Assembly (NCBI GenBank): GCA_026387665.1
Contig: JAPLLG010000007.1
Coordinates: 558,001 to 622,000, forward strand
From: Nitrospirota bacterium
Lineage (GTDB): Bacteria; Nitrospirota; Nitrospiria; Nitrospirales; Nitrospiraceae
Reading direction: 5' to 3'
DNA: 64,000 bases
The position numbers and the translations under genes were made by a program. Below the pieces are notes generated by a model. The model saw nothing but the letters and a program-made list of their open reading frames with translations. It was not told the DNA's origin and ran no database searches. Position 1 is the stretch's first letter, and each line of letters begins with the position of its first letter. Below, in pieces: positions 13,164 through 55,142 of this stretch.

Positions 13164-13390
13164 GGACACAATCCTCCGACCGGCACTCTGCAAGAATCCC
13201 TATAGAGAATATAGCAGGTGTTTCAGGATTGGCCTGACTCAGGAGGCCATCCAGTCGGTAGGCCTGCACGATGGAGAAAAATGTCCGATTGAGTTCAAGA
13301 ATGAACCGGCCTAGCAAGCTACGAAAAAACTCGGTTGATCCGAAAATCCCGGCCAAAATATTCCGTACAGTACTGGGGCACAAATTACCT

Positions 13391-13516
13391 CAGGATGCTC
13401 AAAAAGACCGTCCAGCAAGGCCGCAGCAAGCGAAGAGGCGAGGCGTACGCTTCGGTACGTTGAGCCTCTGAGCGACGCGAGAACGCCGCTGGCGGACTTT
13501 TTCAGCATCCTACTAG
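13391..13516 (-). repeat. Dispersed stop-codon palindrome, copy 2
   Basis: A full copy of the palindrome. Outer arms CAGGATGCTCAAAAAG and (opposite strand) AGTAGGATGCTGAAAAAG frame inner arms with GGCGAGGCGTACG / CGGTACGTTGAGCC around a small loop at about 13450. It lies in the 3' flank of the LMW-PTP-like gene, whose TGA stop is 14 bases outside the repeat. This is the only full copy in which the stop codon is not inside the arm. Confidence 0.85.
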
Positions 13517-28656: not shown

Positions 28657-29853
28657 TTACTGCCTGTCCGCAGCGGGGGCGGTCACAGACTTCAAGCCTC
28701 GATGCAAAAAGATGGAGACGCTGCCATTGCCGTTGTCCGCCGTCACAAGCCCCGGCTCTTCCTCTTCCTTCGTCGTGACACGAAACGTCGCAAGGGCAAA
28801 GGGGCCCGGCTTCGTCCCATAATTTTTGGGTGGATACTCGAAGGTTCCATCGCCCCGGCCAAAGAGAATCGACAAATCGCTCGACTGGAGATTGACGATG
28901 GCGACGTCGATGCGATGATCGCCGTTGAAGTCGCGGGCCAGCCCGAAATTCGGCCCTGCATCGGCGCCGGAATCATGGCCAGGCAGGAACGTCCCATTCC
29001 CGTTACCGAGAAAAGTTGTGAAGCTATCCTTCTCGCCGTTGATCACCAGCAGATCGTGGATCCGGTCATTATTGAAATCAGCGAAGCTGACCCCGAGCGG
29101 GCGCTTGTCCGTCCGATAGTCGGTGGGAAGGCGGAAGGTCCCGTCCCCGTTCCCAGCCCAAATGGACACAGCGTTCGACATCGGCCCCCCGTTCGTCACA
29201 GCTAGGTCGATCGTCCCGTCGCCATTCAAGTCTGCCAGCGCGATGGATGTGGGCGTATCGCCATATTCGTACTGCGCCCCAGGGGTAAAATCGCCGGTGC
29301 CAGCCCCCAGAAAGACCTTGATCTTGTCATTGCGCAATGCGACTACGAGATCCGGCGCATGATCGCCGTTCAGATCGGCGCTGGCGATGGCAATGGGAGT
29401 CCGATGGACCGGATAGCGCGGGCCTTCTTCGAACTTCCCGTCGACGCGACCGAGAAGGACCGACACTTCGTCGCCCCCGGAACAGGCCAATGCCACATCG
29501 GGATAGGAGTCGCGGTTGAACAACCCCAGCGCCAGTGAGCGTGGCTCCTTGCAGACATTCAGTTGGACTTGCTCGCGGAAGGTGCCGTCACCGTTGCCCA
29601 GGAGAATCGAGAGCGTATTGCTGCCGATGTTGGTTGTCAGCAAATCAGTCAGCCCGTCTTGATTGACATCCGTCGTGGTCACGGTGGTCGGACTCTTGCC
29701 GACTTTGTAGCTGGCAAAATAATAGAAAAGATCAGGCGGGGTATAGGGATCCTGCTTGGTACAGCCACTGACTATAAGGAGAACGAGACCGGTCGCTACG
29801 ACCGCCAGATTCAAATGCCTGCGCCCATTATGGCCGTCGCCCTGTTTGCTCAC
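28657..29853 (-). CDS. FG-GAP/VCBS repeat lipoprotein, seven-bladed propeller
   Basis: I favour the GTG at 29851-29853 (GAGGAG six bases upstream; an ATG at 29901 is possible). The product has about 398 residues. An N-terminal hydrophobic stretch ends in a lipobox, LIVSGC, so it is a lipoprotein. Seven repeats follow with Ca-binding-type cores such as DVNQDGLTD, DLNGDHAPD, DLNGDGTID, DFNNDRIHD and DFNGDHRID. One repeat has NRDSYPD instead, and the last is degenerate. This fits an integrin-like beta-propeller with seven blades on the cell surface or periplasm. No partner gene is evident. Confidence 0.85.
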   Translation of the reverse strand: MSKQGDGHNGRRHLNLAVVATGLVLLIVSGCTKQDPYTPPDLFYYFASYKVGKSPTTVTTTDVNQDGLTDLLTTNIGSNTLSILLGNGDGTFREQVQLNVCKEPRSLALGLFNRDSYPDVALACSGGDEVSVLLGRVDGKFEEGPRYPVHRTPIAIASADLNGDHAPDLVVALRNDKIKVFLGAGTGDFTPGAQYEYGDTPTSIALADLNGDGTIDLAVTNGGPMSNAVSIWAGNGDGTFRLPTDYRTDKRPLGVSFADFNNDRIHDLLVINGEKDSFTTFLGNGNGTFLPGHDSGADAGPNFGLARDFNGDHRIDVAIVNLQSSDLSILFGRGDGTFEYPPKNYGTKPGPFALATFRVTTKEEEEPGLVTADNGNGSVSIFLHRGLKSVTAPAADRQ

Positions 29854-30041
29854 GCAGGACTCCTCACGTAGGGACCAGGCGACAGGGAAATACCTCTGCA
29901 TACATATGCCCTTCACCAGGCCGTCAGTCGAAGTCAGTCGCGCCAGTATACAGACCAACGCTTTCTCCTGGCAATCAATCCGCCCGTGCAGTAATCCACG
30001 CCAAAACGCACTTTCCCAGTCCTGGCGGGCGTAGCAAGGCT

Positions 30042-30071
30042 TTGAAAACGGCGTTGCGTTTGGGATATACT
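30042..30071 (+). promoter_or_regulatory. Sigma-70-type promoter
   Basis: TTGAAA (30042-30047) and TATACT (30066-30071) with an 18-base spacer, about 23 bases upstream of the start codon at 30094. An AAGGAGG ribosome site stands before the start. Confidence 0.7.
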
Positions 30072-30093
30072 GTTTTCTTGGCAAGGAGGACCC

Positions 30094-30414
30094 ATGAGCA
30101 AGATGATGAAAATTGATCTGTCGATGTACGGAATCGCCGAGATCCTGCACTGGTGCCACGACCGCAATAAGGGTCGCATCCCCGGAGTGGACACGGCAGG
30201 ATTCGAGAAGATGAAGGCGCTCTTGGCTGAGAAGCCCCAGTCAGGAGATTATTTCGCTCTCGATCAGTTCTGGAAGACGAGAGTCCTCCTGGAACTGACC
30301 GAAGAAGAAGTCGCAACGATCGATCGCTGTCTCTACGATATCCCCAATTTGGACAGCGAACCTCTTCCGCAAATCCGTCATAAGTTCTGGCCGCAACAAG
30401 CAGCGGCAGTCTAG
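30094..30414 (+). CDS. Hypothetical protein, 106 residues
   Basis: A soluble, mostly helical protein of unknown function with the ribosome site AAGGAGG seven bases before the ATG. The N-terminus is MSKMMKIDLSMYGIAEIL, and a Cys-His pair (HWCHD) occurs near residue 20. The C-terminal half is acidic, then ends with a basic-aromatic tail (HKFWPQQ). A clear promoter precedes it and it is expressed alone. A dispersed palindrome lies between it and the convergent PCP_red gene. Confidence 0.75.
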   Translation: MSKMMKIDLSMYGIAEILHWCHDRNKGRIPGVDTAGFEKMKALLAEKPQSGDYFALDQFWKTRVLLELTEEEVATIDRCLYDIPNLDSEPLPQIRHKFWPQQAAAV

Positions 30415-30507
30415 CTCAGAGAGGGGCCGTCTACAACGTGGCCGAGAACCGCGTGAGTAATCCATTGCGTGTTAGCGCGAACTGGCAGGATGAAAAAACT
30501 GCCCTTG

Positions 30508-30636
30508 CAGGATGCTCAAAAAGGCCGTCCAGCAAGGCCGCAGCGAGTGAAAGCCCGAGGCGTACCCTTTGGGTACGTTGAGGGTTTGAACGAAGCGAGA
30601 ACGAAGCTGGTGGCCTTTTTCAGCATCCTGCCGCTA
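30508..30636 (-). repeat. Dispersed stop-codon palindrome, copy 3
   Basis: Full copy with arms CAGGATGCTCAAAAAGG (left) and CCTTTTTCAGCATCCTG (right). The inner arms close on GCGTACCC/GGGTACGT near 30567-30580. The terminal CTA (30634-30636) is the TAG stop of the PCP_red gene read on the minus strand. A shorter look-alike (GGCAGGATGAAAAAACTGCC, 30485-30504) lies just outside the left arm. Confidence 0.9.
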
Positions 30637-31635
30637 GAGCGACCCTTCGCCCTTGAGATACCGGCGAAAGCGTCCCATCAAATCGGCGCCGAGCGTCCCA
30701 CCTTCCGGCTTCTTCACGTCCGGATCGGCAAAATGCCCGCGAATTTCCTGAAGGCGCTTTTCCGCCTGTTCATTCCCCTGCAGCCGCTTGGTCTTCTCCA
30801 ACGCCGTATCGAAAGCCTCAAACGTCAACTCGTTGTATCCGAATGAGCGAATCCGTTTGACCGCTTTCATCATGGCCTGATTCCGAAAGCCCGTCAGATG
30901 CTCCGAATCGATCTCTTTGAGCCCGAGCTTCCGAGCCCGCCGCTCGGCGGCCTTGCGGATTCCGCTGCGCACGAAATCAGGAGACGTCTGCAGCCGCTTC
31001 CAGGCCTCATCGGTCCAGGCGACTCGCTCTTGAGGGGCGCCCCACAATTGCAGCAAGATCGACTCGTCGATCTTCGTCACGCCCTTCTCTCTCGCCAAAT
31101 CTTCCGTGTCCCGTTTCAGCATGTCCGTAACGAATTCCACGGCGATCGGCGGCGATTGTTTCAATTTCTCGTGCAACTGGGCCAGCGCCCCCTCGCTCCA
31201 CTCCAAGGGAGGCGCCGAAGCCTCACGGAGATCGCCCAGCGCTTCCACCTTTTCGAAGAGCTCGACGTTCACCTCGAGATGCCCTCGCTCCTTGGCGATC
31301 TCTTCGGCAATTTGCTTGGTCATGCCGCGCATGAATTCCGGCACGGTGTTTAGCCGTTCCTTGGCGGCAGCCGTCCAGGGGAGATGGCCTTGCGCCATTT
31401 GCTCCGCCGCGTCCGCCATGCCGGATTCGCCGCCCATCCCACCCATCATTTGATTCTTGAACTGATCGAGGATCTCCCCCGTAATCTCCGCGTAGCCAAA
31501 TTCCTTGGCCTTCTTTTCGGCCAAACGGCGAACCATGCCGCGCAAAAATAATGGGGCCCGCTCGAGACGTTTGGAGGCCTCGTCCGTCCAACGGACATCT
31601 ATCCCGACCGCATCCTGAGAATCTGGTGAGTTCAT
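30634..31635 (-). CDS. Protein with four tandem PCP_red domains
   Basis: A 333-residue soluble protein with four similar units of about 45-50 residues. Each starts with WT/WS followed by a helix, a P-x-F/V stretch and basic helices. Units begin near residues 16 (WTDEASKRL), 87 (WTAAAKERL), 146 (WSEGALAQL) and 207 (WTDEAWKRL). This resembles Pfam PCP_red, the C-terminal domain of the light-independent protochlorophyllide reductase B subunit. There it is about 50 residues and packs against the Fe-S catalytic core. No photosynthesis genes are present. The function here is unknown; it lies 13 bases downstream of the IHF-type gene. Confidence 0.8.
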   Translation of the reverse strand: MNSPDSQDAVGIDVRWTDEASKRLERAPLFLRGMVRRLAEKKAKEFGYAEITGEILDQFKNQMMGGMGGESGMADAAEQMAQGHLPWTAAAKERLNTVPEFMRGMTKQIAEEIAKERGHLEVNVELFEKVEALGDLREASAPPLEWSEGALAQLHEKLKQSPPIAVEFVTDMLKRDTEDLAREKGVTKIDESILLQLWGAPQERVAWTDEAWKRLQTSPDFVRSGIRKAAERRARKLGLKEIDSEHLTGFRNQAMMKAVKRIRSFGYNELTFEAFDTALEKTKRLQGNEQAEKRLQEIRGHFADPDVKKPEGGTLGADLMGRFRRYLKGEGSL

Positions 31636-31648
31636 GGTCCGCTTCCTG

Positions 31649-31930
31649 TTATGACTGGTTCAGGAGTTCTTTCAATTCTTTGCCGGCCTTGAAGAACGGC
31701 ACCTTCTTGGCTGGCACCGCCACGGTGGCGCCGGTCTTGGGATTCCGCCCCTCTTTCATCCGGCGAGCCCGCAACCGAAAGCTGCCGAACCCTCGAATCT
31801 CCGTCTTGTCGCCGTTCTTCAACGAGTCCCGCACACAGTCGAAAATCGTATTGACGACGACTTCCGCCTGCCGCTTCGTCAAGGTCGTCACCTGCTCGGA
31901 TACACGCTCGATGATCTGGGCCTTCGTCAT
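31649..31930 (-). CDS. HU/IHF family DNA-binding protein (IHF-like)
   Basis: A 93-residue dimeric nucleoid protein. The N-terminal helices begin MTKAQIIERVSEQ. The DNA-intercalating beta-arm is at RMKEGRNPKTGATV. GFGSFRLRARR is the conserved core. Sequence resembles IHF beta-type chains, but a clear IHF/HU split cannot be made from this alone. It lies between sppA (upstream, same strand, 53 bases) and the tandem PCP_red gene. A second HU-family gene lies at 56643. Confidence 0.93.
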   Translation of the reverse strand: MTKAQIIERVSEQVTTLTKRQAEVVVNTIFDCVRDSLKNGDKTEIRGFGSFRLRARRMKEGRNPKTGATVAVPAKKVPFFKAGKELKELLNQS

Positions 31931-45702: not shown

Positions 45703-46461
45703 CTACATGAACTTCATAAACTTATCTTTGACGTCATCCATCACTTGCGCCGTAATGGTGGCCAGTCCCCGCTCCTTCGCCACCCGCTCGACTTCTTTGC
45801 GGGCCATGGGACGGATGAAGTCCGGAATATTCTCAAGCCGCTTCTCCGCATCAGGCGTCCAGGTCATCCCGTTGCTCGACTCGCTCTTGGAGTCGTCCAT
45901 CACTTGCAACGTGATCGTCTGGTATCCCTGCTTGCGCGCGAACGCTTCCACGCTGCTCTGCACCATCGGCTTCACAAACGAGGGCAGGCGATCGAGCTTC
46001 TCCTTCGCATCGGCTGACCAGGTGAACTCCGAGGTAACCGCTCCACCGGTGGCTGGCTTACCGCCCGAGGTGAGCCCCATTTCCGCGACCATCGCGGAGA
46101 AGGGACAACCGCCGCTGGGCTTCTCGCCCGGCTTGCCCGTCGGTGCGGCTGTGGCAGCGGCTGCTGTCGGCTGACCACCCTGAATCTTCTCGTTCAAATA
46201 GGCTGCCATCTGGCCAGAGCCTGCGGTGGCCTCGTCTTTCAACGTGCCCCTGGTCATCTCGAACGGTTCGGCCGCAACCGTACGCCCGCCCAACTGCACC
46301 CCGAGAGAGCTGACCATCTGGGTTTCGCCAGGATTGGTCACCATGGAAAACTTGGCGCTGCAAGACGGACAGCCGAAGAACACGCCCAGCGTGCCCTCAC
46401 CAGGCTTCTCCACCTTCTCAAAGTTCATGTAGGTTTCACAGTTGAGGCACACGAATTTCAT
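45703..46461 (-). CDS. Zinc-ribbon protein with two PCP_red domains
   Basis: A 252-residue protein in three parts. A zinc-ribbon at about residues 5-34 has two CxxC pairs (CLNC, CPSC). A low-complexity Gly/Ala/Thr linker runs to about 140 and contains one further Cys (GGCPFSAMV). Two PCP_red-like units start near residues 148 (WSADAKEKLDRLP) and 201 (WTPDAEKRLENIP); each ends ITxQVMDD. It lies 26 bases downstream of the Mrp ATPase gene, so they form a transcript. The combination suggests a role in protein assembly or metal-cluster handling, but function is unknown. Confidence 0.8.
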   Translation of the reverse strand: MKFVCLNCETYMNFEKVEKPGEGTLGVFFGCPSCSAKFSMVTNPGETQMVSSLGVQLGGRTVAAEPFEMTRGTLKDEATAGSGQMAAYLNEKIQGGQPTAAAATAAPTGKPGEKPSGGCPFSAMVAEMGLTSGGKPATGGAVTSEFTWSADAKEKLDRLPSFVKPMVQSSVEAFARKQGYQTITLQVMDDSKSESSNGMTWTPDAEKRLENIPDFIRPMARKEVERVAKERGLATITAQVMDDVKDKFMKFM

Positions 46462-46487: not shown

Positions 46488-47408
46488 CTACAGTTTATCG
46501 GCCAGCACCTTTTTATAATCCAGCAAGGTCCTGATGCGCCCGGCGATTTCCTGATACCGTTGAATTGTCGGGTAGGTTTCGTCCAGCAACGGCTCTCCCT
46601 TGTCGAAGGTGCGAGCGATTTTCCGATCGAAGGGAATTCGTCCGAGCAACGGTAGGTCTAGCGCCTCGCACATCGCCTCGGTGTTGCCCTCGAACAACTC
46701 GTTCACTTCGCCACAAGAGGGGCAACGATACTCGCTCATATTCTCGACCATGCCCAGGACTTTGATGCCCATATCACGGGCATAGGTCACCGACTTCTGC
46801 ACCACGTCCGAGGCCACTTCTGATGGTGTCGTCACGACGATCGCTCCCGCCAAGTCCGGAATGAACCCGGCGATGACCGGCGGCTTATCTGCCGCGGCCC
46901 CGGGAGGCAGATCGACCAACAGATAATCAAGTTCGCCCCAAACGACATCTGCCAGGAATTCGCGGATCACATTCATTTCCATCAGCCCCAACCAGACCGG
47001 GCTGACATCCATCGGCCCCTTCCAGCGAACCGGCGACGCGTCGTCCAGGAAGAAATCCATCGACGCGACCTTCACCCCAAGCGGCCCGACCGGGGGAATC
47101 GCTCCCTCAGGCCTCATGGTCAATGACTGTCCATGCATGCCCAGCATGCGAGGCACGCAGGGTCCGTTCAAATCCACATCTAATAGTCCGACCTTCGCTC
47201 CCTGCCGCGCAAACGCTAACGCCAGGTTGACCGTGGTCATGCTCTTGCCGACCCCGCCCTTTCCGCTCATGACGACCAGCTTATGCTTGATCCCAGCCAT
47301 ACGAGCCTGGACCTGCCGCATTTGCTCAGTGATCTGCTGGACGACTTTAGCGTCGTCAGAATATTTCAGTTTGCCAAGAATGGCCTTGAGATCTTTCTCG
47401 ACCGCCAT
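46488..47408 (-). CDS. Mrp/NBP35-type P-loop ATPase (Fe-S carrier family)
   Basis: A 306-residue protein. The deviant Walker A motif SGKGGVGKSMT is near residues 48-58. DVDLNGPCVPRMLG is the family's switch region. DYLLVDLPPG is followed by VENMSEYRCPSCGEVN, whose CPSC pair in Mrp/NBP35 binds a bridging [4Fe-4S] cluster between two subunits. Family members ferry Fe-S clusters to apo-proteins. A helical N-terminal tail of about 40 residues is present, but not the full MIP18-like domain. It is upstream of the zinc-ribbon/PCP_red gene. Confidence 0.9.
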   Translation of the reverse strand: MAVEKDLKAILGKLKYSDDAKVVQQITEQMRQVQARMAGIKHKLVVMSGKGGVGKSMTTVNLALAFARQGAKVGLLDVDLNGPCVPRMLGMHGQSLTMRPEGAIPPVGPLGVKVASMDFFLDDASPVRWKGPMDVSPVWLGLMEMNVIREFLADVVWGELDYLLVDLPPGAAADKPPVIAGFIPDLAGAIVVTTPSEVASDVVQKSVTYARDMGIKVLGMVENMSEYRCPSCGEVNELFEGNTEAMCEALDLPLLGRIPFDRKIARTFDKGEPLLDETYPTIQRYQEIAGRIRTLLDYKKVLADKL

Positions 47409-47565
47409 GACTGATACCCCTCGTTAACTGTGCAAATACAGAGCGATGGAACGGTACCACAGGGGTTTCTGGAGAGTCAAACCAGCGAAAACCTATCCAA
47501 GTCAGGCGAGCGAGCACCGGAAAATCATGCCCCTGGCCACTTCGCGACCTGAGCGAAGGGACAAG

Positions 47566-47813
47566 CAGGAGGCTCAAAAAGTCCATCAGCGAGGCCGCAC
47601 GAGCTGTCGCTTTGTAAGGGGTAGGTGGGATGGCCCCAACTGCTCGCGTCGAACAATATAAATGCTCCCTCCAAGCTTGCTCACTTTCTCTTCAGGGATG
47701 GGGGCTGATTGATCTTCCACTGTGCGCGTCCAACGAGGGGAGTCCTCGACCGCGCGTTGCGCGAGCACAGAAGATCATCAGCCTCCACCCCCCCCTTTTT
47801 CAGCATCCTGCTA
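47566..47813 (-). repeat. Dispersed stop-codon palindrome, copy 4 (composite)
   Basis: The outer left arm CAGGAGGCTCAAAAAG (47566) and right arm TTTTTCAGCATCCTGCTA (47796-47813) match the other copies. The middle is replaced by unrelated sequence. That insert contains its own hairpin, GGCTGATTGATCTTC...GAAGATCATCAGCC, with GTGCGCG / CGCGAGCAC inside (47693-47783). The outer end includes the CTA of the cysNC stop. Together with 47414-47565, this makes up the non-coding gap between mrp and cysNC. Confidence 0.75.
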
Positions 47814-54928: not shown

Positions 54929-55017
54929 AATGACCTCTATGCAGACGGCTGAAAAACCCGGTGAAAAAGAAAAATATAGCTAAAGTGGCCCATATGGCAT
55001 GGAGACATCAATAACCT

Positions 55018-55142
55018 CGGATGCTCAAAAAGGCCGTCCAGCAAGGCCGCAGCGAGCAAAGAGGCGAGGCGTACCCTTGTGGTACGTTGAGCCTCTTTGT
55101 GAAGCGAGAACGCCGCTGGCGGTCTTTTTGAGCATCCTGCTA
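55018..55142 (-). repeat. Dispersed stop-codon palindrome, copy 6
   Basis: The best-paired copy. The outer 16 bases (CGGATGCTCAAAAAGG / GCTTTTTGAGCATCC) and the inner CAAAGAGGCGAGGCGTACC / GGTACGTTGAGCCTCTTTG pair around a CTTGT loop. The CTA at 55140-55142 is the stop of the Rrf2 gene. It separates the regulator from the sulfite reductase gene. Confidence 0.92.

Follow-up and report, generated by a model that had tools for sequence, protein, structure and literature searches.

PCP_red (PF08369) is known from the tetrapyrrole enzyme BchB/ChlB, the B subunit of DPOR, where it forms a C-terminal domain (2kru, 2xdq, 2ynm, 3aek). The window, i.e. the whole stretch of 64,000 nucleotides analysed here, raises the question of what a protein built of four such domains might do in a genome without the BchB/ChlB core. 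This protein, designated A, and its parts are the following.

30634..31635, minus strand: protein A, four-unit PCP_red array (333 aa, ATG start, no cysteine, pI 6.3)
31456..31590, minus strand: PCP_red unit 1 (aa 16-60), 55.0 bits
31249..31377, minus strand: PCP_red unit 2 (from aa 87), 50.6 bits
31048..31200, minus strand: PCP_red unit 3 (from aa 146), divergent, with an insertion, 25.0 bits alone (E 5.7e-5)
30892..31017, minus strand: PCP_red unit 4 (from aa 207), 50.9 bits
30637..30879, minus strand: C-terminal tail of A (aa 253-333), well conserved in the family, modelled with low confidence

The four units proposed in the first-pass annotation are borne out by a Pfam scan, in which PF08369 matches A in four stretches (E 2.6e-47, 159 bits). 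Scored singly in a six-frame PF08369 search of the genome, the source of the bit scores above, three units (1, 2 and 4) and not just one exceed the curated cut-off of 32.5 bits, and unit 3 falls below it. Furthermore, all six pairs among the units are more alike than their shuffles (0/500 for each pair), the last 81 residues, which form the tail, resemble unit 1 (0/500 shuffles) but not units 2-4, and unit 4 is the best conserved, with 66-88% identity to six distant orthologues.

An AlphaFold2 model of A, made from 43 sequences, is of modest confidence, including for the arrangement of the units (pLDDT 68, pTM 0.43), and predicts for each unit a pair of helices followed by a short strand and another helix. 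Structure prediction, suggested earlier as a check, thus gave helical units whose top PDB matches are PCP_red structures: 2kru (VIA Z 8.0, rmsd 1.9 over 56, with unit 2 inside the matched part) and 2l09 (Z 8.0, rmsd 2.1 over 62) are the first two VIA rows, although a Z of 8 alone is modest, and they are also the best PDB matches in Foldseek (0.028 and 0.098, respectively). The model shares the compact helical fold of these two structures. Next come the AAA+ lid domains of RuvB/RuvBL at a VIA Z of about 6-7.6, a likeness that by the tool's own warning may mean only a common arrangement. A likeness to histones was also considered and provisionally dropped, as Foldseek probabilities are at most 0.13; histones do not appear among the 50 VIA rows listed, beyond which other families may still match, and the overall charge of A is near neutral.

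No nitrogenase-like core was detected in A by the Pfam scan, and PF00148, the core family of BchB/ChlB, has no match anywhere in the genome; the best NCBIfam score of A for the DPOR subunit B equivalog is 102 bits, far from the cut-off of 509. The earlier view that A is unlikely to be a reductase by itself is right: A is not one, because the genome lacks the BchB/ChlB core. The accompanying remark that the segment is without photosynthesis genes holds genome-wide for the reductase core family PF00148, to which the result is confined. The units align by sequence with 2ynm (E 2.5e-6), 2xdq and 2kru, and by fold with 2kru, so A shares the Pfam domain of DPOR subunit B but differs from it in having no enzyme core and four units rather than one. 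Another stand-alone PCP_red protein is Asr4154 of Nostoc sp. PCC 7120 (2l09), which like A lies outside BchB but consists of one 62-residue unit and belongs to a phototroph; no function for it was found in the open-licence papers searched.

A does not stand alone, as its genome (2.64 Mb, 14 contigs) holds 12 PCP_red matches in five proteins, A to E. The second of these genes, overlooked in the first-pass annotation, also lies in the window, and three more are found elsewhere in the genome.

45703..46461, minus strand: protein B, 252 aa, an N-terminal zinc-ribbon-like CxxC...CxxC part and two PCP_red units (PF08369 4.5e-34, 2 stretches)
46488..47408, minus strand: Mrp/NBP35-type P-loop Fe-S carrier ATPase (PF10609 7.4e-76), 26 bp upstream of B

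The cysteines of B are at positions 5, 8, 31 and 34, and a model of B folded alone has two confident PCP_red units and an unreliable remainder. Protein C (707 aa) carries three PCP_red units together with two domains of the USP type and one rubredoxin-like domain, which scores barely above its cut-off. Protein D (461 aa), which starts where C ends, has radical SAM and SPASM domains and one C-terminal PCP_red. Protein E (164 aa), a second zinc-ribbon protein, has two CxC/CxxC pairs and two PCP_red units; its gene is flanked on one side by a DUF420 gene and on the other, with one gene intervening, by a cytochrome bd-type gene. One genome (G002; L052 16500-19501) lacks the Mrp neighbour and the cysteine-bearing N-terminus of B, apparently through a rearrangement. 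A B12-binding radical SAM protein (L009 4558-6186) represents a second radical-SAM gene before C-D; its top NCBIfam match is slr0320, 'photosystem II high light acclimation', at 445 bits (cut-off 775).

In family f1, which includes the genome studied here, and in family f2, A lies away from other PCP_red genes. Other families of the class contributed 16 regions. In 11 of them, which are related and so not 11 independent events, another PCP_red gene lies no more than about 1 kb from A: six have the arrangement Mrp-B-A (L206, L207, L208, L209, L214, L219) and five C-D-A (L211, L212, L213, L216, L217). The remaining five (L204, L205, L210, L218 and L215, which is close to a contig end) show neither. 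A is thus linked to Mrp-B in some families and to C-D in others, and because these are two separate arrangements a chance adjacency is unlikely; A very probably belongs to the same functional set as B, C and D. The Mrp-B-A clusters also contain Haem_oxygenas_2 and DUF420 genes, and a haem-oxygenase-like gene lies beside B in four of the six, called by profile in L208 and elsewhere by likeness of the sequence start. An association with Fe-S or tetrapyrrole enzymes, which had been suggested as something to look for, is backed indirectly; the neighbours that A has outside f1 and f2 include the Mrp-type ATPase and the radical-SAM enzyme.

The earlier suggestion that A is a scaffold or binding module is plausible on this evidence, and we tentatively extend it to a fuller statement, quite possibly correct though we would not yet rely on it, in which A would be the scaffold on which D and the proteins supplying it come together, with a tetrapyrrole (haem-type) role. 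With four PCP_red modules, all helical and free of cofactors, A would be the scaffold of a PCP_red-based maturation assembly, its units contacting partners by self-association or by binding common partners. It would keep D, the radical-SAM enzyme with the PCP_red tag, in contact with the rubredoxin-bearing C and with Mrp-B, which would act as electron- and cluster-supply proteins for D. The assembly would probably act on a tetrapyrrole cofactor of the haem type, since D is of AhbD/NirJ2 type.

The assignment of D comes from its profiles and cysteines. In NCBIfam its best scores are for NirJ2 (TIGR04055, 333 bits) and AhbD (TIGR04545, 318.9 bits), both below cut-offs of 500, followed by TIGR04053 at 266 bits and all others at no more than 179. 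Its cysteines at 59-63-66 and 267-295-313-350-353-359-362-380 fit the RS motif CX3CX2C and the eight-cysteine SPASM spacing CX20-33CX17CX36-37CX2CX5CX2CX17-35C, and one published account attributes this motif and the full spacing to AhbD of methanogens and sulfate reducers (PMC10452713). The full spacing is present in 16 of 19 D homologues, that of the present genome included; of the misfits, L234 and L235 are truncated by the contig end and L238 is complete. Among control sequences, a Paenibacillus NirJ2-like protein also fits (1/1) and NirJ1, NirJ and two TIGR04053 proteins do not (0/4); because the NirJ2-like control fits, the spacing cannot separate AhbD from NirJ2, and a small tree with D had no true AhbD sequences among its members. 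By profile and cysteine spacing the radical-SAM part of D is thus assigned to the AhbD/NirJ2 (tetrapyrrole) type, its nearest relatives, from which it differs in scoring below both cut-offs and in carrying a C-terminal PCP_red. A D-type gene is followed directly by a HemY-family (protoporphyrinogen-oxidase) gene in L228, L229 and L231, three loci of one family outside the class, with TIGR00562 scores of 304 and 291 bits in L228 and L231 (cut-off 98). Separately, a Paenibacillus polymyxa plasmid (L272) carries NirJ1-like, NirJ2-like and AsnC-type genes in a row, which by sequence is a haem d1 or alternative haem type operon.

SPASM enzymes mostly modify peptides, and A could instead be the scaffold of a redox- or stress-sensing or peptide-modifying radical-SAM system (USP, rubredoxin and SPASM) unrelated to tetrapyrroles. 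C joins USP, rubredoxin-like and PCP_red domains in one protein, and a C-type USP gene is adjacent to the D homologue in 16 of 19 loci, the other three showing USP-like ORFs or the region edge. Such a system is nevertheless rather doubtful, as the best profiles of D and its full cysteine spacing point to AhbD/NirJ2, well above peptide maturases, and no small precursor-peptide gene was noticed beside D on an unsystematic look.

The tetrapyrrole role that we favour for D is itself constrained by the haem genes of the class. Among the class genomes drawn, HemH is present in 32/40, HemY-type proteins over cut-off in 28/31, PF06778 (ChdC/chlorite dismutase) in 22/31, HemF in 6/31, HemN over cut-off in 4/31 and true HemJ in only 2/40. 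The draw of 31 includes eight f1 genomes (our own and seven others), all of which lack HemF and cut-off HemN and have ChdC/chlorite-dismutase-family, HemY-type and HemH proteins; in our genome HemH and HemY-type matches lie about 36 bp apart and there are two PF06778 proteins. With these three present, the known coproporphyrin route can bridge the gap in f1; haem b there does not have to come from D, and the idea that D fills a missing haem step was dropped. The presence of HemH, HemY-type and PF06778 proteins weakens a tetrapyrrole role for D, which may still lie in, for example, an oxygen-independent route or another modified haem. A CopD-like membrane gene after D/A was rejected as a candidate HemJ: it has one PF03653 match (7.8e-5) below cut-off and no NCBIfam support, and the weak PF03653 match of our own genome lies elsewhere. 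As side observations, G261 (93% complete) has HemH and HemY-type proteins and no cut-off HemN, HemF or PF06778; ferrochelatase (PF00762) is absent from three near-complete genomes, G096 and G108 of family f2 and G253 of family f8 (99%), the last of which has no HemH, HemF, PF06778, cut-off HemN or cut-off HemY.

The Mrp/NBP35/ApbC type of Fe-S carrier ATPase that adjoins B, in the window and elsewhere, suggests a different emphasis, namely that A is an Fe-S assembly adaptor that with B presents clients to the ATPase, tetrapyrroles being beside the point and D one Fe-S client. Of 13 genus regions that extend far enough, 12 have the ATPase adjoining B, as do 6/6 deeper clusters; in another family (L062) Mrp neighbours a B-like gene with a single PCP_red, and D carries three predicted clusters. 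By NCBIfam the ATPase itself stays under the cut-offs for MrpORP (261 bits, cut-off 450) and ApbC (183 bits, cut-off 348), and we know of no Mrp system that includes a partner like B with PCP_red units. We regard an adaptor role as unlikely: A has no cysteine, it is linked to C-D without Mrp nearby in all five C-D-A regions, and to our knowledge a shared helical repeat is not a usual mark of Mrp clients.

A third reading starts from the gene next to A.

31649..31930, minus strand: HU/IHF-type DNA-binding protein (PF00216 9.7e-31), 13 bp upstream of A

The IHF-type neighbour reported earlier is indeed there, with an NCBIfam IHF-beta score of 111.9 bits just under the cut-off of 115. The order rpsA-sppA-HU-A is found in all 20 genus regions, which were picked for holding A, and HU precedes A in 79/79 named loci with room upstream and in four f2 regions (L200-L203). 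In the 16 regions from other families HU is not beside A in any, and in L206, L207 and L219 an HU-type gene lies by Mrp instead. The HU/IHF gene next to A is thus a local arrangement of families f1 and f2 and loses its value as a functional clue. A nucleoid or other DNA-linked role for A, shared with this neighbour, would fit the 13 bp gap on the same strand, the pair kept in f1 and f2, and the weak likeness of a unit to AAA+ lid domains and, at very low probability, to histones; it is nevertheless very improbable, as the adjacency is missing in those 16 regions, A is not basic (54 K+R against 56 D+E, pI 6.3) and PCP_red is used in a radical-SAM enzyme and in USP proteins as well. The reading was dropped on the first of these grounds, the missing adjacency outside f1/f2.

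Other elements around A are recorded here in their own right. An FG-GAP repeat lipoprotein-like gene (window 28657-30159, minus strand) lies downstream of A, is kept there in 6/6 genus and 67/67 named loci with room, and directly follows A again in the distant family f5 (L214), the only case in 18 distant regions; it is a possible further partner of A. A 106-aa ORF (window 30094-30411, plus strand) without a Pfam or NCBIfam match is kept near A in 6/6 genus and 66/67 named loci with room. Furthermore, the window has inverted-repeat elements at 13390-13513, 30507-30631, 47565-47811 and 55016-55140, three spanning about 125 bp and one about 247 bp, with GCAGGATGCTCAAAAAGGCC-like arms (8 arm matches against 0 expected). 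Two bases separate the end of one of them from the stop codon of A; the stretch around this element folds to -69.6 kcal/mol (z -6.75), and the family looks like a MITE-type or terminator element.

PF08369 was found in 32/32 genomes of the genus. A draw of 295 genomes from the phylum gave 164 that have it, 113 of them (by count of rows) belonging to the class; the 20 negatives listed, besides which there are 111 unlisted ones, all lie outside it. A profile of the full protein A matches 78/78 class genomes, in 73 of them at full length (match spans of at least 278 of 333 positions), the shorter cases being G187, G261 (a fragment at a contig end), G325, G330 and G333. Named relatives were found by the patterns FRNQAMM and MGGESG[MI]A, with 80 of 114 kept; they include N. 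moscoviensis and N. defluvii and are titled Nitrospira, Nitrospiraceae or Nitrospirae/Nitrospirota, with one 'uncultured Nitrosospira'. With these short exact patterns A was not seen outside the class, and a plasmid search with A gave no match. A is thus a core protein of this class of Nitrospira-type Nitrospirota, and with a dN/dS of 0.03-0.07 against six orthologues it is under strong purifying selection. BchB/ChlB is the best-known home of PCP_red, yet this selection and the class-wide retention contradict A being a functionless, drifted leftover of the BchB C-terminus of a phototrophic ancestor, to which we give practically no weight.

A large share of global nitrite oxidation is due to Nitrospira-type bacteria; their PCP_red set is near-universal in the class, yet unstudied as far as the open-licence literature searched shows. 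Search listings of open-licence papers gave none on these proteins, and the main text of a comparison of the Nitrospirales (PMC12342949) does not contain heme, radical SAM, ferrochelatase, universal stress or protochlorophyllide. Meanwhile, a 2026 study counts PF08369 as one of the three Pfams most prevalent in phototrophs, and describes photosynthesis Pfams as a pre-screen of genomes ahead of a stricter pathway test (PMC12815261); because 164 of the 295 genomes drawn from the Nitrospirota carry PF08369, caution is needed with this family as a marker of phototrophy.

A domain of a chlorophyll enzyme has a second, non-photosynthetic career here, in a relative of nitrifiers that is itself not photosynthetic, and the A-E set gives a way to approach the function of PCP_red in DPOR. 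In a speculative extension that we consider distinctly unlikely as a whole, PCP_red would be a general docking module for pairs of a P-loop Fe-S ATPase and a tetrapyrrole enzyme. The Nitrospirota machine (Mrp-B, C, D and A) would then modify a haem-type cofactor in a manner like DPOR, where BchL works with the PCP_red of BchB, but with radical-SAM chemistry, and the use of PCP_red in DPOR would be one branch of an older system.
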